Positions 3,514 to 61,821 of a DNA stretch of 64,000 nt are shown here, one piece after another. This DNA comes from a virus, in the IMG/VR virus record IMGVR_UViG_3300030450_002194, positions 1-64,000 of that record. The stretch is one strand, 5' to 3'. The number at the start of each line of letters is the position of its first letter. Positions within the stretch are counted from its first letter, which is position 1. The notes under the pieces are model-generated. The model was not told the DNA's origin, made no database searches, and worked only from the letters and a program-made list of their open reading frames with translations. The position numbers were made by a program, and so were the translations under genes.

Positions 3514-3644
3514 CCTAACCACCCAAATATTTCTGCCATAATAATAGAAGCCACTACTAGATTTACTAACCCCACTAATGTTCTAACTAATGCCAACGTT
3601 CCGAAATGTAATTCAGACCAATGTTCTACATCATCTCCGTTCAT
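3510..3644 (-). CDS. Single-span membrane protein (44 aa)
   Basis: A polar acidic N-terminus is followed by a long hydrophobic helix (residues 17-42). Both ends overlap neighbours by ATGA, placing it firmly inside the operon between primase and XPF-like nuclease. Function unknown. Confidence 0.6.
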   Translation of the reverse strand: MNGDDVEHWSELHFGTLALVRTLVGLVNLVVASIIMAEIFGWLG

Positions 3645-8835: not shown

Positions 8836-9604
8836 TTCTAATATAGGGTGCAATCACCATTTTTCTATTCGGCCCTGTTATTACTATTGGTTTATTATCC
8901 CCACTCCAAAGAGCCATTACATTTTTCACACAAAATTTACCAATTGGTGCAGAAAATTCTACAGTTAAGTCTTCTCTAGAAGGAGTACCAACTAAGGCAA
9001 TCGTTCTATCTACAAACTCTGTTCTATGAAAGTTAGAAGATGAGATAGTTATGTCACTTTGTCCTGCAATATATTCTATCTTAAAGGATGCTGTTCCAAC
9101 CAAGTTACAAAACTTAATTGCATTCGCTAATTCTTCACCGTTTACCATAAGCATACAAGGTAGTTGTGTTTTACCAAAAACTACTGGTTCACCAGTCTTA
9201 ATACTAAGACCCCTAATCATAGAAATTAGGCCCATGTTATTGTGTTCTACTAATACTGGTACTTTAATAGAAGTCCTACCCATATTGAAAGCAATATTAG
9301 ATTCCCCAATACTAATCTTTAAACTTCCTGCTTTGAGATTTTTAAGGTACTTCATAATCTTTTCAATATCAAATATAAACATATATTCTTTTTGTGGTTC
9401 TCCCTCTATATCTATTGTCACACTAATAGCACTTTTATCATTACCATTAAGTAACTCTAATCTAGTATCTTTAATAATGCCAACAGCAGTATTGCTGATA
9501 ACACCAACTTTAGATACAGTCGAGGACTTATATTTGCCTCTCAGCCAAATTGCCTCAACCGCATCTCTAAATTTATCTAAATCACAGTTTATTATTTTAC
9601 TCAT
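8828..9604 (-). CDS. PCNA-like sliding clamp
   Basis: 258 aa, the usual PCNA length. Two similar halves are joined by a linker near residue 125. The C-terminal strands Leu-Thr-Val-Glu-Phe-Ser-Ala-Pro, then Asp-Asn-Lys-Pro-Ile-Val-Ile and Met-Val-Ile-Ala-Pro, follow the archaeal PCNA pattern that forms the PIP-binding pocket. It would tether the viral polymerase, whose C-terminus carries a PIP motif. The start ATG overlaps the recombinase stop by four bases. Confidence 0.85.
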   Translation of the reverse strand: MSKIINCDLDKFRDAVEAIWLRGKYKSSTVSKVGVISNTAVGIIKDTRLELLNGNDKSAISVTIDIEGEPQKEYMFIFDIEKIMKYLKNLKAGSLKISIGESNIAFNMGRTSIKVPVLVEHNNMGLISMIRGLSIKTGEPVVFGKTQLPCMLMVNGEELANAIKFCNLVGTASFKIEYIAGQSDITISSSNFHRTEFVDRTIALVGTPSREDLTVEFSAPIGKFCVKNVMALWSGDNKPIVITGPNRKMVIAPYIRNE

Positions 9605-10497
9605 AGTTTTCCCTCTCGTAGTTCTGGAATCCCAAACCATTTATTATCACCGTTGGTGGTGAAAATAGTCCATTCCTGTCCTACAAGGGAGGGATTCGTT
9701 TTACTAGCCGTTAATTTGGCTACATAGTTTGTGGTCTTTCCCTTCATTACCTTTTCAATATGAATCATCTGCACGAATCTAGCAGGTGTTGATTTATGCC
9801 AATCAGGTACTTCTCCTATAGGAGTAGGTACATTGATATTATCATACACAGGTTTCATATGTGTAATCAAAAACCTATCACATTCTAAACTACATACTAA
9901 GTCTAGTAATCTGTTATAGATTCTATTCCTAATCTTCCAATCAAGTGTAGATACTCTTACTGAATCAGTAGCATGAACGATACTACCTTCCTTAGTTTGT
10001 TGCTTTACTAGCAACTCTCTAAGCACATCGCTTGAGCCTTCAAATGCCTTATCTACTCCATCAAGGCAGAAGGATTTAACATCTCCTGTCTTAATCAAGT
10101 CCTTAGCATATTGGCAAAAACTATTTGCATTATTAAAGGTCTCTTCCCAATCAGTAGAACCATCTGTTCTAACTTCTATTGGGCTAAAGATAACTATGTT
10201 ATCATCTCTATCCCAAGCAGAATCCCACGTTGGTTCAGCCCCATTATCAAAATCCAAAATAAGAATCTTCTTACCTTCTTTTACTTCTTCTTCAGTTCTA
10301 GAATCTAAAACCAATCCGGTCTTACCCACCTTTGGGTTACCCGTTATTGAGCATAGATTATAACTTCTATCCCTATTTAGTCTGGCCTGTATTTGTGCCA
10401 ATATCTTTTTCTTTTGTTCTGCGAAAAAGTCTGGGTTATTAACTCCATCATCACTTCCCGCATTTCCTTTCTTATCTTTAGTCCAATCCATATTCAT
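9601..10497 (-). CDS. Sak4/RadA-like RecA-fold ATPase
   Basis: 298 aa with Walker A Gly-Asn-Pro-Lys-Val-Gly-Lys-Thr (residues 53-60) and a Walker B-like strand Ser-Phe-Cys-Leu-Asp-Gly-Val-Asp. Size and layout fit Sak4-type single-strand annealing ATPases, a short RadA relative found in phages. It sits beside PCNA and the SSB-like gene. It may pair strands during recombination-dependent replication. A full RadA with an N-terminal HhH domain is excluded by length. Confidence 0.7.
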   Translation of the reverse strand: MNMDWTKDKKGNAGSDDGVNNPDFFAEQKKKILAQIQARLNRDRSYNLCSITGNPKVGKTGLVLDSRTEEEVKEGKKILILDFDNGAEPTWDSAWDRDDNIVIFSPIEVRTDGSTDWEETFNNANSFCQYAKDLIKTGDVKSFCLDGVDKAFEGSSDVLRELLVKQQTKEGSIVHATDSVRVSTLDWKIRNRIYNRLLDLVCSLECDRFLITHMKPVYDNINVPTPIGEVPDWHKSTPARFVQMIHIEKVMKGKTTNYVAKLTASKTNPSLVGQEWTIFTTNGDNKWFGIPELREGKL

Positions 10498-13377: not shown

Positions 13378-13719
13378 TTATTCCTCCAATCTAATTTTAC
13401 ATTGAGGGCATCTAATTTTCAAATCCTCAATACTATTCTTAATATCTACCTTTGCATTATAATGCTCATCCGGCAAATATGAAAAATCTGGTAATGCAGG
13501 TAAAGGTGATTTATGATTCATACCCCTACGCAACATCTCTTCTGCTAGTTCATCGTGTCTCTTCTGATACGAAGAAAGTTCTATTTGAACTACAGGTTCA
13601 ACTCTCTTTGTAACTCTAAACTTCTTATGGAAACTAGGAATGAACTTATGCAGTTCTCCATGTTCTCCTAACAAGTGTTGATTACACATTAATTTTGGGT
13701 CTATCATCCACATTCTCAT
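13378..13719 (-). CDS. Pyrimidine-dimer DNA glycosylase-like protein
   Basis: 113 aa. The N-terminus Met-Arg-Met-Trp-Met-Ile-Asp-Pro-Lys-Leu-Met-Cys, then Gln-His-Leu-Leu-Gly-Glu-His, then Arg-His-Asp-Glu-Leu-Ala-Glu-Glu-Met and His-Lys-Ser-Pro-Leu match the pyrimidine-dimer glycosylase/endonuclease V-related family (Pyr_excise). Such enzymes excise UV photoproducts, which fits a virus of sunlit water. A C-terminal Cys-Pro-Gln-Cys pair is an extra feature. Confidence 0.75.
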   Translation of the reverse strand: MRMWMIDPKLMCNQHLLGEHGELHKFIPSFHKKFRVTKRVEPVVQIELSSYQKRHDELAEEMLRRGMNHKSPLPALPDFSYLPDEHYNAKVDIKNSIEDLKIRCPQCKIRLEE

Positions 13720-13926
13720 TTATTCTTCCTCCCATAGTTTCTTATCCCAAGGGTTTACCATAACAATATAATCATTAACAAACACGTTGACACAGGGGAT
13801 ACAAACTGAACCCCCATCTACTTCAACATACTTTCTTATACCAAACATAACTCTATTAGTATGATTACAAACTACACACTTTTCTATTTTGTTTTGTGAT
13901 TCATTTCCTACATACCAAATAGTCAT
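13720..13926 (-). CDS. Zinc-ribbon protein (68 aa)
   Basis: Cys-Val-Val-Cys (residues 17-20) and Cys-Ile-Pro-Cys (42-45) bracket a short beta-rich domain; the tail is acidic. It abuts the glycosylase-like gene. Specific function unknown. Confidence 0.55.
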   Translation of the reverse strand: MTIWYVGNESQNKIEKCVVCNHTNRVMFGIRKYVEVDGGSVCIPCVNVFVNDYIVMVNPWDKKLWEEE

Positions 13927-14183
13927 TCTTCTTCACTTCCTATATATTCCCACACAGTAGTCTTATTGACTTTTTTCTTATAAATTGCAAAGTCCTTAGA
14001 TTGCTTTAATAGGTTACCAACCTGAGTAATACTAGATTGAGTATATCTATGTATTTTGCCTGTGTTTTTATTTCTATATGTATTTAAATATTCTAACGCT
14101 TCTCTTGCATGAAATGTATTATGCTTTTTACCAAATTCTCTAAGTGCTTTCATTCTATATACATGTTTAATTTTTCCGGCCAT
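13923..14183 (-). CDS. Probable winged-helix DNA-binding protein
   Basis: 86 aa with a basic helical N-terminus and a segment (Thr-Phe-His-Ala-Arg-Glu-Ala-Leu-Glu-Tyr-Leu ... Ser-Ser-Ile-Thr-Gln-Val-Gly-Asn-Leu-Leu) that reads like a winged-helix recognition helix, ending in a beta-hairpin. Likely a small transcription regulator. Overlaps both neighbours by one to four bases. Confidence 0.45.
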   Translation of the reverse strand: MAGKIKHVYRMKALREFGKKHNTFHAREALEYLNTYRNKNTGKIHRYTQSSITQVGNLLKQSKDFAIYKKKVNKTTVWEYIGSEEE

Positions 14184-15025: not shown

Positions 15026-15239
15026 TTTTATTCCTCATCGCCATAATGTCTGTATATTCAACATTACATTTAGGACATTCAACCTGTAAGAAGAAAACTT
15101 TAGTACCATCTGGTTCTTGTGATACATTTGTAGTAAATACAATGTATCTAAAACCACACTCTTTACATCCGTCCTCTATCGTTGCTGCCACGCTATTTTC
15201 TAATAACGCTATGTCCTTCGATGAAAATGTTGTCATCAT
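15015..15239 (-). CDS. Zinc-ribbon protein (74 aa)
   Basis: Cys-Lys-Glu-Cys (25-28) and Cys-Pro-Lys-Cys (55-58) frame an otherwise beta-rich core. Overlaps both neighbours. Function unknown. Confidence 0.55.
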   Translation of the reverse strand: MMTTFSSKDIALLENSVAATIEDGCKECGFRYIVFTTNVSQEPDGTKVFFLQVECPKCNVEYTDIMAMRNKNDE

Positions 15240-15634
15240 AGTTCACCTTTAATTTGTAAGATTCTTTCCAATCCTTCTAAGGTGTGGTGTTCACCCGAAT
15301 CTAATATTTCAATTATCTCTTCAAAGTCATTCCAATTATCTTTGGCATCTGGTAAATCGTCAGGTATTACTTGACAAAGTTTCCATATATTTGTTAGCCC
15401 TCCTATTGTTAGGATAGGCCTAGGTCTGCTTTTATGTTCTTTTTCTTTGTAGTTAGATTCTACCCCATGTTGTAATAGTGTACGTTGTACACCTAGTAAA
15501 AAGTTAGAGGCCCCACGTATATTTACTCTAACCCTTACTCTATATCCTATCTGTAGTTTTGCAGCCTTTGCGACATGCACTTCTGGCTTTGCAATAGATA
15601 GGAGTATTCCTTGTAATTGCCCTTTACTATACAT
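15236..15634 (-). CDS. LAGLIDADG-related single-domain protein
   Basis: 132 aa. The N-terminal helix, a basic strand (Gly-Tyr-Arg-Val-Arg-Val-Arg-Val), Asn-Phe-Leu-Leu-Gly-Val-Gln-Arg-Thr-Leu and a second strand Pro-Ile-Leu-Thr-Ile-Gly-Gly resemble a degenerate LAGLIDADG fold. The acidic catalytic residues of active homing nucleases are not evident, so it may be a domesticated DNA-binding protein. Confidence 0.4.
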   Translation of the reverse strand: MYSKGQLQGILLSIAKPEVHVAKAAKLQIGYRVRVRVNIRGASNFLLGVQRTLLQHGVESNYKEKEHKSRPRPILTIGGLTNIWKLCQVIPDDLPDAKDNWNDFEEIIEILDSGEHHTLEGLERILQIKGEL

Positions 15635-16103: not shown

Positions 16104-17627
16104 TTACATCAACTCCTTCACCCTTTGGAGGGTATCGGCTTCAGCAGCATACTTGTCGTGCCGTATCCGCATTGAGCGAGGGAACCTCAAACCAATGTTT
16201 CCGTCAGCATCATTAGAGATTAAATCACTTGTTACTTGCAATACAATTCTAGGCACAAAGAAATACTTATCTCCTTCATACTTTTCTATTCCTTTCCTAA
16301 GTTCGGAAGTAAGATACTGTAAATCATCATCTGAAAAACCAGTACCAACCTTTCCTACTTCAACATAATCACTACCATCCTTTACTGATATTCCAAACGT
16401 ACCAAACCATCCACTTCTTTTACCTTTGCCGTATTGAGCAGAAGTAATAACTACATCTAACTCAATTCGCGGTGGCTTATACTTCAACCATCCTTTGCTT
16501 CTCTTACCTGGTTCATAAGCCATGTCTGCATCTTTAATCATAATACCTTCAAAGCCCCAATCAATAGCCAGATTATATGCTGCTTCAATAGTAGTATCCT
16601 CAAACCTAGTTGCAATATAAGGAGATTCAACGTTCTCTTCAAGTTTAATAATTCTGTCTGCCAAGGGTTCCTCTAGTAAAGACCTACCTTGGATTGATAG
16701 AATATCAAACACTGCTAATTGAATTGGGCATCGTTCTATTGCCTTCGCCTTATCTTTCATATGAACTCTCTTTGCTAATAACTTATGTTCAGCAGGAGAA
16801 CCATCTCTATTGATAGGATAGATTTCAGCATCAACGATACAATCAGAACACAATACATGTCCGGCTAGTATCTCGTCAACCAAATCTGCAAATTGATTAG
16901 TAACAAGGTTGCCCTTTCTATTAAAAATCATAACACTTTCTTTTTGAGGTAAGTAATGAATTTGGTATCTATTACCATCATACTTAACATCAATGATGTG
17001 ATTGCTTGGCTTTTCCTTTCCTTTCCTTGCCTTTGCTAACATTGGTGTCACCCACAACCCATGTGTTAATTCAACGCTAGGAATAAACCCTTGTTCTAAT
17101 TCAGCACAAATATCTGTGGCAGTATTAAAATGATAATACTTCTTAATATCAGAAATAGTATGCCCATAATGTTTAGCCAGTGCCTTTAGCGGTATGTTAT
17201 TGTTCACACCATTTCTAGGCTTACGCAACCAATAACGTACAAACCACTTCTTTTCTCTAGCACTCATCTTATTAAGGTTCTCAGCAAATAGAGTATATGA
17301 TGCACTTTCAATCCTTGAGCAATCCATATTCAATAGTTGCCAAAACCCCTGAATAGTAATATCTGAATCAGTTTCATTACCTAAATCAATTTCAGCCATT
17401 GCTTCCCCAAAATCACCCCATGTATAAACTGAGGTTTTCACTTCGTCTTCAAATAAACCAAGTGCATTGGCTATCCAAGTCATCGCTCTAGATTCTGCAA
17501 TATTATTTACTGCATATTCTATAGATAATATATTTATCACTAGATGCTTAGAATCAAAAGAAGATAAAGATTCAGATATAGTAGTTACTTTATCAGTAGG
17601 CCTTTGGTCTTCTAATAGTTCACACAT
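16104..17627 (-). CDS. ATP-dependent DNA ligase
   Basis: 507 aa, normal for an archaeal ligase. The N-terminal 190 residues are the helical DNA-binding domain. Motif I is Val-Lys-Tyr-Asp-Gly-Asn-Arg (Lys is adenylated), motif III Asp-Ala-Glu, motif IV Glu-Gly-Ile-Met-Ile-Lys, and motif V Trp-Leu-Lys-Tyr-Lys-Pro, followed by an OB fold. It would seal Okazaki fragments and repair nicks. Confidence 0.92.
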   Translation of the reverse strand: MCELLEDQRPTDKVTTISESLSSFDSKHLVINILSIEYAVNNIAESRAMTWIANALGLFEDEVKTSVYTWGDFGEAMAEIDLGNETDSDITIQGFWQLLNMDCSRIESASYTLFAENLNKMSAREKKWFVRYWLRKPRNGVNNNIPLKALAKHYGHTISDIKKYYHFNTATDICAELEQGFIPSVELTHGLWVTPMLAKARKGKEKPSNHIIDVKYDGNRYQIHYLPQKESVMIFNRKGNLVTNQFADLVDEILAGHVLCSDCIVDAEIYPINRDGSPAEHKLLAKRVHMKDKAKAIERCPIQLAVFDILSIQGRSLLEEPLADRIIKLEENVESPYIATRFEDTTIEAAYNLAIDWGFEGIMIKDADMAYEPGKRSKGWLKYKPPRIELDVVITSAQYGKGKRSGWFGTFGISVKDGSDYVEVGKVGTGFSDDDLQYLTSELRKGIEKYEGDKYFFVPRIVLQVTSDLISNDADGNIGLRFPRSMRIRHDKYAAEADTLQRVKELM

Positions 17628-30652: not shown

Positions 30653-31204
30653 TTACTCTTTCATGTGAACTAATAACAGAACTAGATAGCCTATCAAATC
30701 TTTCACTACATCTTCATCAGATTCTAGTGAAGCATTTCCTTGCATCAACCTATTCAGTTTGTCATCTATTCTAACTTTAATCTGCTCAGTCTTATCAGCC
30801 GTTGAAAAGATTCTTATTGGCTGTAGTGCAGAGTCACCATACTGTTGATTCTTACTCAACAAGAAGGTAGTTATTTCTGTCATAGTCTTTGAAATCTTAA
30901 ACGATGATGAGTCTTTATCTACAGACCAATCATGTTTATGTTCATCTGCGCTTGGTTCATACTTCTTATATGTATTACCAAGTGCTGCTCTAAGGTGGTT
31001 TGTTGTCACCTTAGAAGTTTTCTTTTTCTTAACCTCCTTAGAAGAGTGCTTCTTCTTGAGCACACCCTTGTGTTGTAGGTTATATACTTTCTGCGTTACT
31101 GACGCAAAACTCCGCTTCATTGTAGCGGCTATCTCTTTTGAGGTCTTACCTTCCTTGTATAAGTCAGATAACCTCTTTATGTCTTCCTTTGTCCACTTCA
31201 CCAT
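30653..31204 (-). CDS. HTH (Myb-like) protein fused to nucleotide-modification domain NMAD1/DUF1599
   Basis: 183 aa. Residues 2-50 are a Trp-Thr-Lys-Glu-Asp helix-turn-helix, followed by a Lys-rich linker. The C-terminal 75 residues carry Lys-Asn-Gln-Gln-Tyr-Gly-Asp-Ser, Arg-Ile-Asp-Asp-Lys-Leu-Asn-Arg-Leu and Asp-Leu-Ile-Gly-Tyr-Leu, the signature of DUF1599, a family predicted to act on modified nucleotides in phages. A regulator that senses or pairs with modified-base metabolism is possible. ATG at 31204 is preferred. It is the first gene of the left arm. Confidence 0.65.
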   Translation of the reverse strand: MVKWTKEDIKRLSDLYKEGKTSKEIAATMKRSFASVTQKVYNLQHKGVLKKKHSSKEVKKKKTSKVTTNHLRAALGNTYKKYEPSADEHKHDWSVDKDSSSFKISKTMTEITTFLLSKNQQYGDSALQPIRIFSTADKTEQIKVRIDDKLNRLMQGNASLESDEDVVKDLIGYLVLLLVHMKE

Positions 31205-31807
31205 GTTATTCACTTCATGTTAAACAGTTTTAATTCCAGAGCGATGTTAATTACACATCGTTTCTACTTTGCTGGAAAGGTCATTTTGATTTACTTAGCC
31301 CCCTGTAAGTGCCTCAAATTGAGTGTGTTGTAATTCGTTTCCATTTTTCCATCATTTACACCCCCCCGTCAGGGGAGGAGGAGGAGGAGAGAGAGAGAGA
31401 GAAGAAGAGTAGTGTAAATGTTATAATATTGTAATTAATATATAATAACATAGTTATACTACCTTAACTCTCTCATATTGCCTCACTCTCATTTCCAACT
31501 CAATTGGAAATGTGGAAACGTGTTGCCTCCTTATCATATCATATAGGATATGTCATATTGATATGTGTATCCATAATGGATATATTATACATAGATAGCC
31601 TTCTCGGTACATATAGAATAATGGACGCTGTTATATGTTAGAACATTTTACGCCATTAATTCTGATATGTATAAGTAGGCCATTGGTGGAATACGTGCTT
31701 AAGAGGCCATTGATATTAATTGCCACCGACAATACTATCCAATCGAGGGACTATATAAGAGATGCCGCACCCCTCGACACCCTTCTCTAATAATAGAATT
31801 ATCTCAA
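31205..31807. other. Non-coding AT-rich region with polypurine tract
   Basis: No gene found. It holds a 40-base purine-only tract with GGA and GA repeats (31371-31410) and an AT-rich block. An 8-9 bp hairpin CATTTCCAA/TTGGAAATG lies at 31490-31512, and iterated ATATG-type words at 31535-31605 include TATCCAT/ATGGATA. A TATATAAG box sits near 31753. This mix suits a replication origin or unwinding element between divergent arms; that is inference. Confidence 0.4.
31371..31412 (+). repeat. Polypurine (GGA)n(GA)n tract
   Basis: An uninterrupted run of A and G over about 40 bases, with GGA then GA then GAA repeats. Such tracts can form triplexes or slip during replication. Confidence 0.8.
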
Positions 31808-31861
31808 ACCATATGGTATCAACAACTTTGTCCAGTTGAAACCTGATTTTGAGGAGTCCGA

Positions 31862-31889
31862 CAGGAAAGGGCGACTAATCCCCTTCCTG
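31862..31889 (-). terminator. Hairpin after the 31931-32440 gene
   Basis: A 10-position stem with one mismatch (CAGGAAaGGG with CCCcTTCCTG) about 40 bases beyond the stop codon. Probable transcript end or stabiliser; no strong T-run follows. Confidence 0.5.
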
Positions 31890-31930
31890 CCAGACAAGAA
31901 ATGCTGCTAACTAAGGCGTGAAAGAAGGGA

Positions 31931-32440
31931 TTACTCCTCTTCCTCCACATAGTCGTATTCTGCACAAGCAGACAGTCCATCTAGTGAACCATCCCACTCA
32001 CCGGCCTTGTACAGTTCCCTTGCGGTCTGCTTTGCCTTCTTAGCAAGTGTATTAGCGTAATCGTTTGCATCAACGAAAACTGGTGGGCCTGCACTCTTTC
32101 CATGCTTTCTTAGCAATGGCTGAGAATACTGTGCGGTACTCTCAAAGAAGGCATATGCTGCCTCCCTTATTGCTTCTGCTGCTGAATCCACTACAACAGA
32201 TGCTGCTGCGGGTAATAGCCCTTGATTACCCCTGCGCCAAACAACCTTACCTGAAGGGAAATCCTTCAGCATTGCCTTTATTGATAGAGCCAATGCAGCC
32301 CTATTGTCTACGTTATTATCACCAGTTTCAATTAACATTGTTGCTAGTGACCTTACATCTCCGGGTATTGCGCTATCCACATCACCCTCGATGCATGAAT
32401 TAACCTTCATCTTTACTGATTCCCAATTTACTTCATCCAT
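31931..32440 (-). CDS. Cassette-encoded paralogue A (169 aa)
   Basis: Two parts. Residues 22-65 share Leu-Ala-x-Met-Leu-Ile-Glu-Thr-Gly-Asp and the following Arg/Ile pattern with the protein at 28309-28548. Residues 100-160 share His-Gly-Lys-Ser-Ala-Gly ... Trp-Asp-Gly-Ser with the protein at 34279-34818. The tail is acidic (Glu-Glu-Glu-Glu). Codon use is more GC-rich than in the left arm. GGAAGTG lies eight bases before ATG and TATA box TTATATAC about 60 bases upstream. It is alone in its cassette. Function unknown. Confidence 0.7.
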   Translation of the reverse strand: MDEVNWESVKMKVNSCIEGDVDSAIPGDVRSLATMLIETGDNNVDNRAALALSIKAMLKDFPSGKVVWRRGNQGLLPAAASVVVDSAAEAIREAAYAFFESTAQYSQPLLRKHGKSAGPPVFVDANDYANTLAKKAKQTARELYKAGEWDGSLDGLSACAEYDYVEEEE

Positions 32441-32501
32441 AATATTCACTTCCTTATTTCTTTCTTGCCCCGTTAGCGGCACTTCTCTCATATTCATAGA
32501 G

Positions 32502-32509
32502 TATATAAG
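32502..32509 (-). promoter_or_regulatory. TATA box of the 31931-32440 cassette gene
   Basis: On the minus strand TTATATAC directly follows the boundary hairpin (GGTTTC/GAAACC) attached to CCATATGG, the same order as the three plus-strand cassette promoters. The distance to ATG is about 60 bases. Confidence 0.55.
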
Positions 32510-32535
32510 AGGTTTCAAACAAAGCGAAACCATAT

Positions 32536-32680
32536 GGTAATGAGGTTTTTTCGGGGATACAAGGAAACAAGGCTAGAAAAACACGCGAATTTTCCTTAGT
32601 CTAAAATCTTAGTGCGTTTTCTGCACCTGTATTTCCAGTGCATTTGCTATTTAACATAGCCTTATTTTACGCTCATTACC
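32536..32680. repeat. Module closed by 9-bp terminal inverted repeat
   Basis: The module begins GGTAATGAG and ends CTCATTACC, perfect complements immediately inside the two palindromic sites. An internal hairpin GCTAT-TTAAC-ATAGC is a variant of the conserved apical loop. No gene found. Confidence 0.65.
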
Positions 32681-32706
32681 ATATGGTTATATTAAAGGGA
32701 TATAGT

Positions 32707-32796
32707 CATGGTATCACAGTAAAATGGGCTGGTGCAGACTAGCGTAAATCGTTAGGCTGCACAATTTGCATTAAGCAAAGCCCTTGGGATACCATG
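32707..32796. repeat. Nested hairpin with ATTAA apex
   Basis: Outer stem CATGGTATC/GATACCATG, next GGGCT/AGCCC, next TGCAG/CTGCA, and a mini-hairpin TTTGC-ATTAA-GCAAA at 32765-32779. Stems are perfect and separated by unpaired bulges. Could fold as RNA or single-stranded DNA. Confidence 0.65.
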
Positions 32797-32894
32797 TCTA
32801 GATAACGTAATAATAATCCCAACAGCCAAGTGAGGCACTATCATAAAGGACACTGGACTAAAGACGAGTTACTTACACAAGTCCAGTGCTACCA

Positions 32895-32998
32895 GTAATT
32901 GACGTTAAACCATGATTTCATCATTGGCTATACATAGACATACAAGCCTGGGCTTAATGCCCTTAACGGCATATATGTCTGTCTATTCCATCAATTAC
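32895..32998. repeat. Nested hairpin with TTAAT apex
   Basis: Outer stem GTAATTGA/TCAATTAC, next ATAGACATA with TATGTCTgTCTAT (one bulged base), apex GGGC-TTAAT-GCCC at 32950-32962. A separate 9-bp hairpin CACTGGACT/AGTCCAGTG precedes it at 32851-32888. Confidence 0.65.
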
Positions 32999-33083
32999 CG
33001 GTTGCACAGGCCACGCGTAACTAACTCCTCTTTACTCGCTGATGTCCTTAACCGTACCATATGGGTGTAACCCTTAAGGGAAC

Positions 33084-33209
33084 GGAAATTATTTTTTGTG
33101 CTTCGGACATTGTTCTACACTTCCTTTGCTTCTACTGTAACTTAGTTAGATGCTTAATGCATCTCTCGCAGGAAGAGATAGAACCTGCCTCCGCAAAAAA
33201 ATAAGTTCC
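33084..33209. repeat. Nested hairpin with TTAAT apex
   Basis: Outer arms GGAAATTATTTTTTG and CAAAAAAATAAGTTCC pair with one or two interruptions; apex AGATGC-TTAAT-GCATCT at 33148-33164 is a perfect 6-bp stem. Confidence 0.65.
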
Positions 33210-33257
33210 TTCTTCGACCCATATGGTGGCATCAAGTAGGAGGTGATTGATTGAGAA

Positions 33258-33452
33258 TCATTCAAGCCAATTGTCGTCCATAGGAGGGAAGGCTCTTAGA
33301 ATCGCAGAGTCTTTCTCTGGGCCGTCAGGCAAAGATTCAAGAAGCCTAATCTTCTTATGGTCTACATATGTTATGTATACGATGAACATCATCATTACTC
33401 CTAACAATACAATCACTGGCATTACTTCATTTAACCCTAATTCTGTGGTCAT
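33258..33452 (-). CDS. Cassette-encoded single-span membrane protein (64 aa)
   Basis: A short acidic N-terminus is followed by one membrane helix (Val-Met-Pro-Val-Ile-Val-Leu-Leu-Gly-Val-Met-Met-Met-Phe-Ile-Val) and a charged cytoplasmic-type tail. It fills one module. The start ATG-ACC lies in the 3' arm of a hairpin GGTCATG/CATGACC that abuts CCATATGG, so access to the start may be controlled by RNA folding. The frame is open further upstream to 33548, but that would cross the site. Function unknown. Confidence 0.6.
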   Translation of the reverse strand: MTTELGLNEVMPVIVLLGVMMMFIVYITYVDHKKIRLLESLPDGPEKDSAILRAFPPMDDNWLE

Positions 33453-33619
33453 GTCTGCTGACGCATGACCATATGGTAGAGGGTCAATTAAGTGCCGGAG
33501 GGACTTAATGTAAGCCATGCGGTCCTCGACCAGATAAAAATGGGGCACATTGTAAGATTGTATTATACATCACAAACTACACACCTTCGGTGCCGTTTGC
33601 TCAAAATAATATCAATCAT

Positions 33620-33636
33620 TTTGGCTTAATGCCAAA
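33620..33636. repeat. Hairpin TTTGGC-TTAAT-GCCAAA
   Basis: A perfect 6-bp stem with the conserved TTAAT loop, directly adjacent to the palindrome starting at 33636. Confidence 0.65.
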
Positions 33637-33667
33637 CCATATGGAATTAGAAAAGATACAAGATGGT

Positions 33668-33856
33668 TTAGAAGCCATCGTCAGGAGGTGTCCAATAGCA
33701 ATATGCTATTTCGCTTCTAGTCATATTATCAAATGGTATGGAACAATCATACCTGGGGTCATAGATAGACAGATATAGCATATATGCTAACAGGGCAAAC
33801 GTTAGTAGGCTTATAAGCCAAAGTTGTTTCTTTTCGTCAAGATTCCATAAGGTCAT
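33668..33856 (-). CDS. Cassette-encoded single-span membrane protein (62 aa)
   Basis: A polar N-terminus, then one long membrane helix (Leu-Trp-Leu-Ile-Ser-Leu-Leu-Thr-Phe-Ala-Leu-Leu-Ala-Tyr-Met-Leu-Tyr-Leu), then an exposed tail with two cysteines. The start ATG-ACC is again the 3' arm of a hairpin (GGTCAT/ATGACC) next to the palindromic site. Alone in its module. Unrelated in sequence to the 64-aa protein apart from topology. Confidence 0.6.
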   Translation of the reverse strand: MTLWNLDEKKQLWLISLLTFALLAYMLYLSIYDPRYDCSIPFDNMTRSEIAYCYWTPPDDGF

Positions 33857-33956
33857 TTGACGCTAACGCATGACCATATGGTAGTTAAAGTAGTTATAGG
33901 CGTTACGAGAAACGAGAGCCGCTTACACTTAACTTGCCACATGAGGTACGTATCGC

Positions 33957-34004
33957 GGAAAACTATCCACTTTGTTCTTGACTTAATGTCAAGTTCCGTT
34001 TTCC
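33957..34004. repeat. Nested hairpin with TTAAT apex
   Basis: Outer GGAAAAC/GTTTTCC, inner CTTGAC-TTAAT-GTCAAG at 33977-33993. No ORF in this module. Confidence 0.65.
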
Positions 34005-34053
34005 ACTCACGACCATATGGGCAAGTAGAATGAGAATGGAGCGTTAAAGGTGC

Positions 34054-34149
34054 GAAATCTACAATACTGGCAAGTATTTTCTGATACAGGCATTAAGCCG
34101 GTGCTATGCACTATCTTACCTACAATACTTGCCAGGGCAGGTAGATTTC
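34054..34149. repeat. Nested hairpin with ATTAA apex
   Basis: Outer GAAATCTAC/GTAGATTTC (9 bp), then CTGGCAAGTATT/AATACTTGCCAG (12 bp, perfect), then GGC-ATTAA-GCC at 34089-34099. One of the clearest examples of the module design. Confidence 0.75.
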
Positions 34150-34204
34150 TTCCTTTATGACCCTATGGGGGCTACACCCATATGGTAGGTTACTTTGTTA
34201 AAGA

Positions 34205-34220
34205 CTACCTTAAATAATCC
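34205..34220 (+). promoter_or_regulatory. Promoter of the 34279-34818 cassette gene
   Basis: CTACC-TTAAATA-ATCC follows the boundary hairpin; AAATATAGAGATACGG lies just downstream and probably marks the transcript start. The same block recurs at 34895 and 35919, so it is a repeated cassette promoter. Confidence 0.55.
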
Positions 34221-34278
34221 ATCAAATATAGAGATACGGTGGCGACCGAACCCACCTATACTCACAGGAGTGATAAAT

Positions 34279-34818
34279 ATGGTTGATTACAGCATGGAAG
34301 ACAGCGTATGGAGCAACAAGAAAGAACACATTGCCGAGTGGTTTACTGCAAACCCAGAGCATGAAGGTAGGAGAGTCATTGTGGACGGATTGTTCGCAAT
34401 AGGCGATTCTCAGCCAGACCTCAGAAAGAGGCACTGGTCGAGCATTAGCGGAGTATTCGCAGATTTGGATAACTCCCCTATTGGCGGTGGAAGGAAGTCA
34501 CTAATGACAACCGCCGTTAAGTCCGACTTTGACAAGTACCTCGGTACATTCAGAGAGAACATGGCAACAGTCGTGTACCCACTGGTTTCCGGTACTGCAA
34601 AGACACACGGAAAGTCCGGTGGCATCCTTTACGCCACTATGGAAGATGGGGCATCCGAGTACGCAGACGATATGACGAAGAAAGAGAGGCTATTCTTGAA
34701 TGCCGCTTTCAACGCATACACCACGAACAACACCGAGAAGAGGTATTTCTGGGACGGTTCGTACAACGAGGATGGTTATCCAGTAATAACCGATAATGGG
34801 GGTCAAGAAGAGGAATAG
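34279..34818 (+). CDS. Cassette-encoded paralogue C (179 aa)
   Basis: It shares with the protein at 31931-32440 both the Gly-Asp-x5-Arg-x6-Ile helical domain (residues 35-75) and a later His-Gly-Lys-Ser-Gly-Gly ... Trp-Asp-Gly-Ser domain; the tail is also acidic. It faces the opposite way, so paralogues bracket the divergent region. GC and codon use are higher than in the arms. GGAGTGAT lies six bases before ATG. The transcript ends carry complementary 10-base arms GGTGGCGACC (34238) and GGTCGCCACC (34827), which could circularise the mRNA ends. Function unknown. Confidence 0.7.
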   Translation: MVDYSMEDSVWSNKKEHIAEWFTANPEHEGRRVIVDGLFAIGDSQPDLRKRHWSSISGVFADLDNSPIGGGRKSLMTTAVKSDFDKYLGTFRENMATVVYPLVSGTAKTHGKSGGILYATMEDGASEYADDMTKKERLFLNAAFNAYTTNNTEKRYFWDGSYNEDGYPVITDNGGQEEE

Positions 34819-34894
34819 GGGTGTTTGGTCGCCACCCTCCCTTCGGGGACTTGTTTACAAAGTTATTGTCCATATGGTAATGGGCTTTGTAAAC

Positions 34895-34911
34895 ATTACC
34901 TTAAATAGTCC
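34895..34911 (+). promoter_or_regulatory. Promoter of the 35035-35235 cassette gene
   Basis: ATTACC-TTAAATA-GTCC directly follows the hairpin GGTAATG/CATTACC of the boundary element. The TATA-like TTAAATA sits about 25-30 bases before the structured leader. Confidence 0.55.
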
Positions 34912-34928
34912 ATATAATGTATAGAATC

Positions 34929-35016
34929 AGACGGGGCAACCAATACCCATTAACACAGTATATTGCCGCCGAGCATTCAATGCCTGTGAGGGGTCACTTG
35001 GTTTAATGCCCCGTCT
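34929..35016 (+). ncRNA. Structured 5' leader of the 35035-35235 gene
   Basis: A 10-bp perfect stem AGACGGGGCA/TGCCCCGTCT encloses a second stem AACCAA/TTGGTT and about 50 further bases. A short ACCC/GGGT hairpin then partly covers the ribosome site GGTGA. The arrangement suits a cis-regulatory RNA such as a thermosensor or protein-binding leader; no known riboswitch class is recognised. Confidence 0.5.
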
Positions 35017-35034
35017 ACCCAATGGGTGAATCTC

Positions 35035-35235
35035 ATGTCAGAAGATAAAACAATTATTCAACAGATTAACGAACCAAAGTATGTTATTGAATTAGCACAC
35101 AAGAAATCAGGGTCAGCCCTTGTGCTATCAATCAACAAATTGAGAGTATCGGGTGATAATCTGGAACAGGTCATGTCTGAGTTAAATTCAGCATTAAATG
35201 ACTATCTTGGCATAACTGGGGATGACACCAGTTAG
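35035..35235 (+). CDS. Cassette-encoded small protein (66 aa)
   Basis: Mixed alpha/beta, no Cys, with a Leu-Val-Leu-Ser-Ile-Asn strand and a Met-x-x-Leu-x-x-Ala-Leu helix. ATG at 35035 is chosen because GGGTGA lies six bases upstream; GTG at 35026 is an alternative. It lies alone between paired boundary elements. No family recognised. Confidence 0.6.
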   Translation: MSEDKTIIQQINEPKYVIELAHKKSGSALVLSINKLRVSGDNLEQVMSELNSALNDYLGITGDDTS

Positions 35236-35330
35236 TCAGGTATTGATTACAAAGTTCAATACCATATGATAGTAACGTAGTGGTGTTTGTAAACTAAGTC
35301 GCGGTAACTTGTTAGCGTGGCTACTGTGAG

Positions 35331-35347
35331 TGACGCATTAAGCGTCA
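35331..35347. repeat. Hairpin TGACGC-ATTAA-GCGTCA
   Basis: Perfect 6-bp stem with the conserved ATTAA loop in a module that also has two copies of GTTTGTAAAC (near 35286 and 35370). Confidence 0.65.
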
Positions 35348-35440
35348 GTTAAACGTAGCGAGTATAGGGTAGTTTGTAAACAACTATCTGATTGCTCACG
35401 TATTCACAATCATATGGTGGTAAAGATAGAAGAATCTATG

Positions 35441-35572
35441 TCAGTCGGTGAAACCGAGTGTCTTGCGCATATGGAGATACTGTTCTTCATCAGACAGTAT
35501 CTCGTACAAGATATTACTCAGTGTTTCAGCGCATTCAAATAGTTCTTCCTTGGTAACCTTATTTCCGGTCAC
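35441..35572 (-). CDS. Cassette-encoded small helical protein (43 aa, GTG start)
   Basis: Read on the minus strand from GTG-ACC: a helical, acidic protein (Lys-Glu-Glu-Leu-Phe-Glu-Cys-Ala-Glu-Thr-Leu ... Leu-Tyr-Glu-Ile-Leu). The start is again in the 3' arm of a GGTCA/TGACC hairpin beside CCATATGG. The leader GGTCATGCGTTAGC is nearly identical to that of the 33668-33856 gene, which is the main reason to call this short frame a gene. Function unknown. Confidence 0.5.
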   Translation of the reverse strand: MTGNKVTKEELFECAETLSNILYEILSDEEQYLHMRKTLGFTD

Positions 35573-35741
35573 TTATTGCTAACGCATGACCATATGGTGA
35601 CGAGTGGGAAAACAGTAGTTACATTAAGTAAAAAGCATAGCGTCAGTTTTCGTGCGCTGTGACCTAATGAGGCAAGTTAAGCGAGCGGCTACATCACATG
35701 TACGCCTACGTACTTATACTACCATATGGTTATTAATCACG

Positions 35742-35838
35742 CTTGCGAGAATTGCAAACGTCAGGTGTTAATTTGCCAAGTATGCGCATTAAGCGCAGAA
35801 CTAAGTGTCAGGTAAATTAACTTGCAATCCGAAGCAAG
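35742..35838. repeat. Nested hairpin with ATTAA apex
   Basis: Four stacked stems: CTTGC/GCAAG, ATTGCAA/TTGCAAT, GTTAATTT/AAATTAAC and TGCGC-ATTAA-GCGCA (35783-35797). A second simple hairpin GTTTAGCG/CGCTAAAC closes the module at 35848-35890. Confidence 0.75.
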
Positions 35839-35918
35839 GGTTATAGTGTTTAGCGGTAATCACCTTAAGGTTCTTAACGCTTCGCTAAACCATATGGTAG
35901 TGAAACTTTGTGTTAGCA

Positions 35919-35933
35919 CTACCTTAAGTAGTC
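35919..35933 (+). promoter_or_regulatory. Promoter of the candidate long non-coding RNA
   Basis: CTACC-TTAAGTA-GTC follows the boundary hairpin GGTAGTG/CACTACC, then TTAAATATAGAGATACG, almost identical to the block before the 34279 gene. Confidence 0.55.
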
Positions 35934-35944
35934 TATTAAATATA

Positions 35945-36318
35945 GAGATACGTCCTTGACGGAGGACACCGGAGTGGCTGAATATCACCGTTGTTAGGGT
36001 GAAAGGCACACATCTAGGGGTCATAGTGGCCCATCGAGCCGACTAAAGAAAACGGTAGGCAGTACAAACGCCCTTAGCGGGGTTAGATGTGGTATGTGCG
36101 GGTAAAGCAATATAACACTGTTATTGAAACTGACACCCATTGCACATTGAGAGAAACTAGAAATAGGCTTCTCTTCTCCACCCTTGAGCCAGTTTTGCAC
36201 ATTTCTGGCACTTAACCAAAAAATGTCGCATCTCAATAGTGAGTAAGACAACGACTTGTAACAATATAGTTAGCGCAAGTGGAAATCGTTGCATCATTAT
36301 TGAGATGAGGTCTTTTTT
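35945..36318 (+). ncRNA. Candidate ~370-nt structured non-coding RNA
   Basis: It is framed by a cassette promoter and a terminator-like end. It opens with hairpin GTCCT/AGGAC, then a long domain closed by ACATCTA/TAGATGT and GCACA/TGTGC. GCCAG/CTGGC and GAGAGAA/TTCTCT hairpins follow. It ends with nested ATCTCAATA/TATTGAGAT, CAACGA/TCGTTG, CTTG/CAAG and TAAC/GTTA just before six T at 36313-36318. Plus-strand ORFs are absent. No known RNA family is recognised. Confidence 0.5.
36230..36318 (+). terminator. Nested hairpin followed by T6
   Basis: Outer 9-bp stem ATCTCAATA/TATTGAGAT with three inner stems, then TCTTTTTT. T-runs terminate archaeal polymerase; the hairpin may protect the 3' end. 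Confidence 0.5.
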
Positions 36319-36357
36319 ACAAAGTTATTACCATATGGGTTTAAGTTCTACAGATAT

Positions 36358-36482
36358 AACTTAAGATAGCAATTAGGCGGACGAAGTCGCGCCGAAAGCA
36401 AAAGTAATCGTAGGATGCATTAAGCATCAGCGTAGCGTAGTAATTAGTTTTGTTGGAGGGAACGTAATTCCTATCTTAAGTT
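36358..36482. repeat. Nested hairpin with ATTAA apex
   Basis: Outer stem AACTTAAGATAG/CTATCTTAAGTT is a perfect 12 bp. Inside are GGCG/CGCC and the apex GATGC-ATTAA-GCATC at 36414-36428. The module then closes with a hairpin ATGTTCT/AGAACAT ending ACC. Confidence 0.7.
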
Positions 36483-36582
36483 CTACACAGAACAATTACC
36501 CTCAATTTGGGGTCATGTTCTAATTACTGAGAACATGTTACCATATGGATATGACTAACGATTAGTGTCCAGGAAAGCGTTA

Positions 36583-36597
36583 ATCACATTAAGTGAT
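36583..36597. repeat. Hairpin ATCAC-ATTAA-GTGAT
   Basis: Perfect 5-bp stem with the conserved loop in a 124-bp module that holds no gene. Confidence 0.6.
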
Positions 36598-36674
36598 AGC
36601 AGGAGTCTTAGCCTTATGTTTAGGGATGATATAAACTACGTTTTGATAACTACGTTTATTACTACCATATGGTT

Positions 36675-36738
36675 GCTGAAAGAGATAACGGCGAAATTCA
36701 TCAAAACAAATGAATTGAGCCGTAGTCTCTGTAACAGC
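36675..36738. repeat. Four-step hairpin without ATTAA apex
   Basis: GCTG/CAGC, AGAGA/TCTCT, ACGGC/GCCGT and AATTCAT/ATGAATT stack with 2-4 base internal loops around a loop CAAAACAA. The same module later has GGTGC-ATAAT-GCACC at 36848-36862, a loop variant. Confidence 0.65.
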
Positions 36739-36927
36739 AGTGGAGTACCTACGAAACGTACCCCAATTCTATGCTGTCTTATGTTATACACTCCTTCTGG
36801 TCTTATATGGAACCACACTATATACCTTCAGTCGTTATGCTTTGCATGGTGCATAATGCACCTGTTACCACTCCTTCTAATTATAGGTGGAACCTATGAC
36901 CATATGGATGAGAAAGGTTTCAGTCGG

Positions 36928-37006
36928 GATACGCTGAAGCATGGCGAGATGTTATTGCATTAAGCAATAGCGATACGCGTGTATGGAGGCATGTCTGGTG
37001 CGTATC
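36928..37006. repeat. Nested hairpin with ATTAA apex
   Basis: Outer GATACGC/GCGTATC with apex TATTGC-ATTAA-GCAATA at 36953-36969. A closing hairpin GTTAATCAC/GTGATTAAC follows at 37044-37076. Confidence 0.65.
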
Positions 37007-37482
37007 TTGCTGGGCCAATCTTGCATCCTGATAGGATGTTTTGGTTAATCACTTTTCCTTACTTTACGTGATTAACGTCACACCATATGGTCGGTGAGGT
37101 TGAGGTGTCGAAGACGGTGGTGCTTGCACCTTGGCATCATCGAAGACATACGAAGTAATAATGTCTGAGATATGCCAAATAGTCGTAGGCCCCTCATAAT
37201 GCACCCAGACCTTATGAGAGGAGTTGATTTATACGTGTAGTCTTTAACTTTGTTAAAGCCAACTTTAACTTAATGTTTTAAATAAATAAACTTAACCTCA
37301 TATGGTAGTGCAAGAGCGATACAGCAAACAACAACTGTATCAAACTTGATAGGAGATATGAAAACACACTCTTGCAACTATCCTCATCGGCTCACCACTT
37401 AGCGGTAGCATATGGGTGTAGCCCTGACAGGGTGCATAATAACTTGCAAATCTCCGCTGGAACTTCGTAACATTGTTTAACA

Positions 37483-37499
37483 AGAGGCTTAATGCCTCT
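37483..37499. repeat. Hairpin AGAGGC-TTAAT-GCCTCT
   Basis: Perfect 6-bp stem with TTAAT loop inside a module bounded at 37407 and 37550. Confidence 0.65.
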
Positions 37500-37566
37500 A
37501 TACTTTACGAAGATTCCAGTCTCCGTTTGCAAGTAATTATCATTTCATGCCCATATGGAAAGGTGG

Positions 37567-37637
37567 GGTATAAAGTCTTCAGCGCAGCATGTAGGCATTA
37601 AGCAGGGTGCTAAGCACCCAATGCTGCGATTTATACC
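37567..37637. repeat. Nested hairpin with TAA apex
   Basis: GGTATAAA/TTTATACC, then CGCAGCAT/ATGCTGCG, then GGGTGC-TAA-GCACCC. A second nested pair, GTAGAGTATA/TATACTCTAC around GTGTTGTCT/AGACAACAC, follows at 37675-37759 in the same module. Confidence 0.65.
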
Positions 37638-37817
37638 TTACAATCCCCAAGCATTAGGGTTGTATTGTCTTTGTGTAGAGTATACGCTCTTACGAACTAG
37701 TGTTGTCTTATCTCCTGGAGACAACACTCAGTTCTCCACTATCGTAGCATATACTCTACTGCTGAGTATACCAACCATATGGATAGTAAGGCTTACGGTA
37801 GGCTTACCGTAGCGAGT

Positions 37818-37888
37818 CGATAGTGTACTTACATTAAGTAAGAGCAGAGGTAATAAACGTAGTTTATGCCAGGATGCGTTTGCTATCG
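37818..37888. repeat. Nested hairpin with ATTAA apex
   Basis: CGATAG/CTATCG encloses CTTAC-ATTAA-GTAAG at 37828-37842; TACGGTA/TACCGTA lies just upstream. Confidence 0.6.
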
Positions 37889-37972
37889 GGCGAGACGGTG
37901 GTAAGACTAGTGGGGCCATTAAATCCTGATGGGGTGTTTCACACCATATGGTATGAGTTACGGTTTACCAAG

Positions 37973-38091
37973 GTTTACAGGGTTAAGTAAGAGTACGCTA
38001 CAGTGGGGAACAAGTATAGATGCATTAAGCATCGAACAAAGTGGAATGCAGTTCCCGGATATGTAGCGTAGTCTTAGTTAAGACTGTAAAC
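37973..38091. repeat. Nested hairpin with ATTAA apex
   Basis: Four perfect stems: GTTTACAG/CTGTAAAC, TACGCTAC/GTAGCGTA, GGGAAC/GTTCCC and GATGC-ATTAA-GCATC (38019-38033). The cleanest example of stacked complementary arms in the array. Confidence 0.75.
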
Positions 38092-38150
38092 TGGTGTGGC
38101 CGATAATACGCAATACCAGAACATAGGGTAGTTATCACTACGTTCATTGC

Positions 38151-38262
38151 TTAAAGGAAGGAGTTAAACTGTAGAACTCCGATGCTCTGGCTTAACGCCT
38201 GTCCCGCTGAATCTAGCGGGAACCGCATGTTTATCTTCATTCTACAGAGCCTCCTCCTTTAA
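38151..38262. repeat. Nested hairpin with TTAAC apex
   Basis: TTAAAGGA/TCCTTTAA, CTGTAGAA/TTCTACAG, a side hairpin CCCGCT/AGCGGG and GGC-TTAAC-GCC. It is the last module before the right arm. Confidence 0.6.
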
Positions 38263-38290
38263 CCGTCACTCCGTTTCACTACCATATGGC

Positions 38291-60505: not shown

Positions 60506-60519
60506 GACAGGTGGGTATT

Positions 60520-61821
60520 ATGGGTGAAAAGGGAGATAAGTACCGTCAACTAGGCGATGAGGAAGATAAAATTGATGAGATTAAGGATAATATTAATCGA
60601 ATACAAGATGATATGAAAAATGCATGGCTAGAACAGCAGCCTATCCGTGACCACGATGATGTAGTCAAGGATTATGCTAATATCTCTAATATGAACCTTA
60701 CAGACGCTAAGGCATCTTTATTCCACTACCCTAAAAAGTATGAAATTGAAGGTAAAGACATTCCTACGCTAATTAAGAACATGCGGTCTTATAGGCGCAC
60801 CTTAAAAGGAGAAACTAAAATCGCATTTACTAATTCGATAGATGAATTGATTAAAGGATATTCTGAGTATCTTGAGAAGTGTATAGATAGTATATATTGG
60901 ATAAAGAAGTATAAATACCCACTTAAGCAAATGAATTATAATGAAGATAAGTTAAGTAAGTTAAATTCAATAACTACCGCCGAAGAAAAAAGAGCCTTCA
61001 TAGATGTGCTTTGTAAGTATTGGGAGGCAGAACAAGACATTCAAGATTTACCCTATGGTAAAGAATTTTCAAGACTAACTAAAGAGATGAAGGCACATAA
61101 AAAGCAATTCACACAATTACTGAAACAAACACCTATAAGTACCTCGCCAAAGGACACAATAAGGAAAGCCATTCTAGATTCTGTTTGTGAAACTCCAGGC
61201 ATCTCTTCTAGGGAAATACACGATTCATTACCTAAGAAACTACATGATAGAAGTTCTCCTCAAATTATAGCAAAACTTGCAAAGGACGAAAATATAACTA
61301 ATATTGACGGTGCATACTATAAAATCAATGATGACATTAAAAAGAATATTTGGGCTTATACCGCAGCATTTATTGATTCAGACGGATATATTACAATGGA
61401 TAAAAATCATAACCCAAGAGTAGGATTAGTAGCAACAGGCAACAGAGGAAAGGCCTTTATGTTAGAAATGCATAAATCGCTTGGAATGGGAAGACTACAT
61501 TTAGACCAGAAATCACCGCAAGATACTAGACTCATTAATAGATTAAACTTTTATTCCGGTGGAGATATTAAGAAATTATTAACAAAATGCTTACCACATT
61601 TTAAACTTAAGAAAAACAATGCTAATGTGTTATTAGAACTTATTAAGATTAAGAAAAATGATAAGAAGAAAGATTGGTATAAAGATAGAAAAGGGGAACT
61701 ATTTAAGTTAATGAAATATTATAATCATAGTGACAATGCAAAGTTTGATTGGAAAGCATGGGATATTGATATTGATGGTATCACAAAACTAGAAGAAAAT
61801 AGTAAAATGGATGTGCTATGA
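60520..61821 (+). CDS. Winged-helix plus LAGLIDADG-like protein between TerL and portal
   Basis: 433 aa. The first 200 residues are helical and charged. Residues 205-265 form a winged helix (Ile-Ser-Ser-Arg-Glu-Ile-His-Asp). From about 280 comes Tyr-Thr-Ala-Ala-Phe-Ile-Asp-Ser-Asp-Gly-Tyr-Ile, a LAGLIDADG-type helix with its catalytic Asp, then a matching strand and helix. It may be a free-standing homing endonuclease lodged in the packaging operon, or a domesticated packaging nuclease. Confidence 0.55.
   Translation: MGEKGDKYRQLGDEEDKIDEIKDNINRIQDDMKNAWLEQQPIRDHDDVVKDYANISNMNLTDAKASLFHYPKKYEIEGKDIPTLIKNMRSYRRTLKGETKIAFTNSIDELIKGYSEYLEKCIDSIYWIKKYKYPLKQMNYNEDKLSKLNSITTAEEKRAFIDVLCKYWEAEQDIQDLPYGKEFSRLTKEMKAHKKQFTQLLKQTPISTSPKDTIRKAILDSVCETPGISSREIHDSLPKKLHDRSSPQIIAKLAKDENITNIDGAYYKINDDIKKNIWAYTAAFIDSDGYITMDKNHNPRVGLVATGNRGKAFMLEMHKSLGMGRLHLDQKSPQDTRLINRLNFYSGGDIKKLLTKCLPHFKLKKNNANVLLELIKIKKNDKKKDWYKDRKGELFKLMKYYNHSDNAKFDWKAWDIDIDGITKLEENSKMDVL

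Follow-up and report, generated by a model that had tools for sequence, protein, structure and literature searches.

A stretch of 64,000 nucleotides (the window; positions 1 to 64,000 of virus record IMGVR_UViG_3300030450_002194, a contig of 71,005 bp) contains, at positions 31808-38290, a series of small modules delimited by a short palindrome. Comparison of related viruses shows entire modules in a different order or orientation, or present in one virus and missing from another, and the breakpoints coincide with the palindrome. We consider it probable that this region is an orientation-indifferent cassette array, in which neighbouring modules meet at a common 10-bp palindrome and each module would supply one half-site (ATGGT...ACCAT) to the ACCATATGGT junction. 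The gene content of the virus matches that of the order Magrovirales, viruses of the abundant marine archaea Poseidoniales, and includes the hallmarks of opposed gene clusters, a split family B polymerase, RFC, ligase, TFB, a tailed-virus terminase and a portal protein.

The exact sequence CCATATGG occurs 23 times in the window, every copy within 31809-38289, whereas dinucleotide shuffles of the window gave a mean of 0.97 copies and at most 4; in the full record, too, all 23 copies fall in the array interval and none elsewhere. Four variants that keep CATATG bring the total to 27 sites, in line with the approximately 27 near-identical palindromes reported by the first-pass annotation, and the arms on either side are free of the sites, which that annotation had said would be equally common there if its proposal were wrong. 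The consensus of 423 distinct sites (A88 C95 C100 A T A T G100 G96 T83) is ACCATATGGT, a perfect 10-bp palindrome. Bases outside these 10 bp show little conservation, and a palindrome extended across the site beyond them was looked for and not seen. Across 43 arrays, 5 sites lie within conserved gene cores where 111 would be expected; the sites avoid genes. The GC content of the array is 42%, compared with 34-36% in the arms.

The modules fall into two classes: long modules with hairpin ends that hold a gene or a manA-like RNA (type I), and short non-coding modules. Exactly four modules of the window are type I, those of cl0a, cl0b, cl1 and the manA-like RNA. The array is laid out as follows, with G051 denoting the closest array-bearing relative, at about 80% nucleotide identity to the window.

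31808-38290, no strand: cassette array, 27 palindromic sites (ACCATATGGT) bounding 26 modules.
31813-32533, minus strand: type I module 1 (the anchor) with the cl0a gene; paired terminal CTTTG hairpins and a TATA-like box, TCTTATATAC, behind the upstream hairpin.
32534-32682, no strand: short module whose ends are perfect complements (GGTAATGAG/CTCATTACC), an exceptional case.
32683-34181, no strand: seven modules without CTTTG ends; sites at 32678, 33056, 33218, 33468, 33636, 33873, 34012 and 34177.
33258-33456 and 33668-33856, minus strand: small open reading frames in two of these seven modules.
34182-34873, plus strand: type I module with the cl0b gene (34279-34818), a paralogue of cl0a; inverted in G051.
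34874-35265, plus strand: type I module with the cl1 gene (35035-35235); inverted in G051.
35266-35893, no strand: four short modules; sites at 35261, 35409, 35589, 35721 and 35889.
35894-36334, plus strand: type I module with the manA-like RNA (35952-36185); inverted and relocated in G051.
36335-38285, no strand: ten modules, none with CTTTG ends; sites from 36330 to 38281.

Most of the seven modules at 32683-34181 contain a C[AG]TTAAG hairpin. Among the relatives mapped, the anchor module has a counterpart at the same array end in G004, G005, G008, G010, G051, G056 and G062, and the cl1 family is present in 39 of 43 arrays.

To follow modules between genomes, we defined orthologues as whole-module reciprocal best matches and took their orientation relative to the flanks. 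Between G051 and the window, both arms are colinear except for one displaced 219-bp stretch. Within the array, three of the seven common modules (34182-34873 with cl0b, 34874-35265 with cl1 and 35894-36334 with the manA-like RNA) are inverted, their order is changed, and the alignments stop at palindromes. G052 and G053, whose flanks are 92-95% identical, have 18 modules in common, 6 of them inverted, and keep 3 of 12 adjacencies; the corresponding figures are 13 modules, 3 inverted and 4 of 9 adjacencies for G056 and G062, and 9 modules, 6 inverted and 0 of 4 adjacencies for G010 and G056. A clean inversion distinguishes L323 from L330, and translocations are seen in the pairs L328/L344 and L314/L319. 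Where colinearity breaks, 65 of 128 block ends are no more than 8 bp away from a site centre, compared with about 5% expected; in the closest pair the fraction is 22 of 30. The first-pass annotation had proposed that modules may be gained, lost or shuffled at the site, and had named beforehand an alignment of relatives as the check. That alignment shows gain, loss, moves and individual inversions, whose breakpoints fall at most a few bases from the centre of the palindrome, rather than the fully conserved order and content that would have spoken against the proposal.

It is very improbable that these rearrangements are metagenome assembly artefacts at repeats. Although all records are metagenomic contigs and some end at the array (e.g., G009, G029 and G021), a repeat of 10 bp is not long enough to confuse assembly, the modules are distinct from one another, several independent pairs show rearrangement, and near-identical contigs of different assemblies agree in module order (G005/G006 and G004/L372). 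In addition, these three contigs as well as G035 and G064 stop within the array or next to it, which might reflect strain variation that broke the assembly there.

The half-sites themselves contain information about the point of exchange. Non-consensus half-sites (e.g., ATGGG, ATGGA and ATGAT) stay with their module at 20 ends and differ at 8, counted in rearranged and colinear modules alike. Because half-site variants usually travel with the module, the exchange point is most likely the centre of the palindrome, within ATAT. This centre is symmetric and orientation is therefore irrelevant, explaining the inversions; because the junction is symmetric, a module could be inserted either way round and still be expressed. 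We propose that a virus- or host-encoded activity would cut and rejoin, or anneal, DNA at the palindrome centre, most likely during replication.

Type I modules have a characteristic end, which read inward from the site has the form ATGGTNNNN-nn-(A/G)CTTTG(T)-nnn-N'N'N'N'ACC. CTTTG is found at offsets 6-21 in 34% of 779 module sides, compared with a background of 1.4%. It stands at both ends of 131 of the 178 modules longer than 330 bp and at neither end of 207 of the 221 shorter ones. The arms of the end hairpins vary yet remain complementary, with 87 perfect stems of at least 6 bp compared with 15 in chimeric controls. When stem mismatches are read on the inward strand, G.T outnumbers A.C both upstream of the gene (20:11) and downstream of it (23:4). 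A hairpin in mRNA would give a bias on the sense strand only; because the excess of G.T is on the inward strand at both ends, the pattern points to DNA hairpins, each read separately on the strand that starts at the site, rather than to an mRNA leader. A TATA-like box follows the hairpin at 25 of 83 upstream ends but at only 1 of 93 downstream ends, and many gene modules would therefore bring their own promoter. The two module classes, the covarying inward end hairpins with their CTTTG loop and the TATA-like box are new relative to the first-pass annotation. Its suggestion that the flanking bases continue as a hairpin arm fits the local hairpin at each end of long modules, but not a general complementarity of a module's two ends: a closing stem between them is not above chance, extending beyond ATGGT/ACCAT by a mean of 0.78 compared with 0.88 in re-paired controls. 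The 9-base complementary ends that it described for the module at 32534-32682 are real, but exceptional among modules.

The position of these elements bears on a different explanation, in which the palindrome is mainly regulatory (an operator or promoter element) and the rearrangements are phage mosaicism via short homology, as at the promoter stem-loops of T4-type phages. The location of the sites between genes is in keeping with this, as is the TATA-like box that often stands just inside the upstream end of gene modules, and a Sak4-like annealing protein may be encoded. However, sites also stand at the downstream ends of genes and flank gene-free modules, the sequence common to the junctions amounts to only about 10 bp, the inversion of single modules is exact to the palindrome centre, and the CTTTG hairpins are paired at both module ends, which an operator would not need. 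We regard the regulatory explanation as possible but doubtful. The PeSL elements of T4-type phages reportedly comprise a promoter and a stem-loop between genes. Hairpin and then TATA-like box do occur in this order at the upstream ends counted above, but a hairpin is present downstream too and short modules are without this arrangement; in place of the long homology of PeSL elements, the modules share only the 10-bp palindrome and the spaced CTTTG, with unconserved flanks. As with PeSL elements, the group II Campylobacter phages have a region in which repeats between genes accompany shuffling, and in CP21 and CP220 modules are rearranged and inverted between repeat regions (PMC4546147). Both of these are long homologous units in bacteriophages, whereas the magrovirus junction is 10 bp long, palindromic, with its exchange point at the centre, and in an archaeal virus.

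Several observations weigh against an orientation-indifferent cassette array. Gene-rich arrays, which have 4-7 sites, remain colinear between relatives that are 76-93% identical; they retain the sites without shuffling, as the regulatory explanation would have it, and the palindrome may therefore also have another role. Block-end statistics are weak for more distant pairs, and only two pairs (G052/G053 and G056/G062) combine high identity with many rearranged modules. Pairs that are at least 98% identical are colinear apart from single replaced modules; rearrangement is seen at about 90% identity, so what we observe is on an evolutionary scale rather than frequent switching within a population. 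Finally, no recombinase has been identified: among the approximately 50 window proteins scanned, a set that does not cover all small proteins, no tyrosine or serine recombinase, transposase, invertase or HUH nuclease was recognised. This agrees with the earlier statement that the window has no integrase, and in the profile of the related family Aoguangviridae by the International Committee on Taxonomy of Viruses (ICTV) integrases and transposases are likewise not identifiable (PMC10768690). A diverged or host-encoded integrase would be compatible with this negative scan.

Viral candidates for a part in the exchange are a Sak4-like protein, the ligase, two nucleases and unassigned conserved proteins, among them the following two putative helpers.

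9601-10497, minus strand: Sak4-like annealing protein (phrog_124, E 0.0056, a weak match), kept in the distant array carriers G054 and G060.
16104-17627, minus strand: ATP-dependent DNA ligase.

The genes beside the array encode a helix-turn-helix (HTH) protein and the anchor protein, neither with a match to a recombinase family. We considered cl0, which has two copies in many arrays and one at a fixed array end in seven relatives, as a recombinase; its predicted structure is a confident helical model (pLDDT 92.8), but matches in the PDB are unconvincing (highest Z 4.5). A LAGLIDADG-like single-domain protein (15236-15634), conserved and encoded near the ligase gene, was demoted as a cutter of the palindrome, as its LxGILxSxxxPE motif appears to be without the usual acidic catalytic residue.

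End hairpins are mostly absent from the short modules, being present on 7 of 298 sides compared with 2.3 in the control. In the window's lineage, most of them hold a hairpin with the loop [AG]TTAA closed by a C-G pair; its stem varies freely and is mostly complementary, and the hairpin is found 17 times in the array and once outside. The outer helix around this hairpin measures 6.45 bp, compared with 5.02 bp in controls. Short modules of other lineages have their own motifs (ACGCTWAG with ACGAAGTG; GCCTAAGC; CACCCTCCC). In orthologous short modules, 64 double changes preserve a pair and 32 do not, while control pairs slid by two give 59 double changes of any kind. Together, the outer helix and the compensatory changes support the idea that the short modules carry structure. 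There was no G.U preference on the motif strand of short modules (G.T:A.C 14:21 and 15:12), with neither strand favoured. Because G.U-type changes are not preferred, RNA and DNA structure cannot be told apart here, and we did not retain the short modules as RNA genes. Three short modules (33258-33472, 33668-33877 and 35441-35593) contain a small minus-strand open reading frame behind a common start, GGTCATGCGTYAGC, which is also found in G010, G055 and G058; two of the three have a hairpin GGTCAT..ATGACC, and these modules are perhaps a third class.

The manA-like RNA at 35952-36185 matches Rfam RF01745 over the full model with 41.9 bits (E 2.4e-8), which is under the gathering score of 55.2. 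Similar RNAs are found in the arrays of G051, G052, G053, G058 and G062 (E 1e-6 to 5e-11), where the best score, 54.3 bits, is still under that threshold. These E-values, which cover the whole model, speak in favour of a diverged relative of manA RNA, whose published contexts are cyanophages and marine metagenomes (PMC2864571). Within the array this RNA is the sole match to a known RNA, and no tRNA was found.

To understand how widespread such arrays are, we gathered 278 relatives by a terminase scan. CCATATGG is present in 35 of the 50 relatives searched whole, with copies nearly always in one region, and a paired-site scan gave additional arrays with up to 24 copies per record. Arrays also occur in the distant magroviruses G054 and G060, whose terminases are about 57% identical. 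In relatives without CCATATGG no alternative palindrome is clearly enriched; two of them, G020 and G022, are also without array genes, and their contigs may be incomplete. We also searched viral contigs and 257 Gb of cellular genomes with a strict pattern that describes two type I ends side by side. Viral contigs gave 72 matching stretches, and magrovirus or array proteins accompanied nearly all of them; the single match in cellular genomes lies inside a coding gene and was judged to be chance. These results make it unlikely that type I modules are non-autonomous elements resembling miniature inverted-repeat transposable elements (MITEs), with arrays built by repeated insertion beside existing copies at a TA target (CCA-TA-TGG). 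Such elements would account for ends that are paired and inverted as a property of the module rather than of the site, and in the junction CCATATGG one can see a TA flanked by two TGG ends. However, each genome has its modules almost exclusively at one locus, forming one cluster with few stray copies where MITEs have copies at unlinked targets; the double site is absent from cellular genomes apart from that one match; short modules shuffle without such ends; and no transposase was recognised among the window proteins scanned.

The cassette-array reading invites comparison with established systems of rearrangement. Like the shufflon of plasmid R64, the array has segments between short repeats that are reordered and inverted singly or in groups. 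The sfx sites of the shufflon, on which the invertase Rci acts as recombinase, are asymmetric (PMC11852207). In contrast, the magrovirus site is a perfect palindrome, its segments are whole genes or non-coding modules that are also gained and lost, and no Rci-type enzyme was recognised beside the array. The first-pass annotation had likened the region to integrons, and this holds for the logic of gain, loss and reordering at a site: both are arrays of small modules, mostly of one gene each, with breakpoints at a common element and a foldable hairpin whose variable stem covaries. The likeness does not extend to IntI or attI, which were not seen at the array, or to the features of attC, which is conserved in structure, present once per cassette and directly oriented. 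The magrovirus site is conserved in sequence, the hairpins are at both ends of long modules only and inverted, modules occur in both orientations, and gene modules often have their own TATA-like box. The stoperators of cluster A mycobacteriophages are also short conserved elements in 20-30 copies in short intergenic gaps, but they are asymmetric repressor sites spread over the genome; the magrovirus sites are palindromic, gathered in one region, and are breakpoints of rearrangement. Judged by title and abstract, none of the open-licence magrovirus papers retrieved for palindromes or noncoding RNA is about such an array.

If modules are indeed exchanged at the palindrome, the paired end hairpins would probably be single-stranded DNA recognition ends that mark gene cassettes, and the accessory genes of the genome would be gathered in the array. 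We are evenly divided on a broader proposal, namely that this is a new recombination system of archaeal viruses in which modules can be joined in any combination and either orientation through palindromic half-sites, paired single-stranded CTTTG-loop hairpins are read by an enzyme of an unrecognised family, and structured non-coding modules are carried along. We know of no mechanism for the exchange of accessory genes in magroviruses, and to our knowledge no integron- or shufflon-like platform of this kind is known in archaeal viruses; a symmetric-site array would be the first. If true, it would supply a list of accessory modules ready for mining, and an enzyme that acts on the 10-bp palindrome could serve as a DNA-joining tool. 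In addition, it opens to direct test how mosaic accessory regions are built in virulent viruses that have no integrase.

The array sits between two opposed gene clusters. To its left, on the minus strand, are genes for the two-piece family B polymerase, RFC, ligase, TFB, an ERCC4 nuclease (2836-3522), a PD-(D/E)XK nuclease (4913-5779) and ribonucleotide reductase; to its right, on the plus strand, are structural genes (terminase and portal). The ICTV profile of the Aoguangviridae likewise describes two opposed clusters and a split polymerase (PMC10768690). INPHARED holds no close annotated relatives of this virus, and magroviruses are described in one report as ubiquitous in the surface ocean (PMC10160649). 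Two conserved features adjoin the array on its left.

31334-31800, no strand: conserved non-coding flank adjoining the anchor module; 31523-31601 is 90% identical in G004.
30653-31213, minus strand: gene for the conserved HTH protein (Pfam GcrA, E 0.0018, a weak match; PHROG transcriptional regulator D5-like, E 2.6e-9).

Part of the flank is 90% conserved in relatives even though the proteins of these relatives are less similar, and the flank is a possible origin or array leader.

Further observations concern the arms. A pyrimidine dimer glycosylase gene (13378-13934; Pfam Pyr_excise) was not found in nine relatives compared, and the stretch 13716-13934, just after the glycosylase gene, matches G051 between its two polymerase pieces. 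The protein encoded at 60511-61821 has a C-terminal LAGLIDADG-like motif (AAFIDSDGYI) and a PHROG match labelled HNH (E 6e-6). Its gene is kept between terminase and portal in all relatives for which this stretch was available (44-78% identity), and because it is conserved in place it looks like a core gene rather than a stray homing endonuclease. Approximately 15 right-arm proteins (38658-63500), otherwise unlike one another, begin with a common signature of roughly M-[SNH]-W-x-x-[IVL]-[LIV]-K, for example MSWENIIK, MNWFDIIK and MSWKNILK (positions include 41211, 41927, 42724, 47494, 48666, 51281, 57607 and 63467); this could be a capsid-targeting or cleavable packaging signal.

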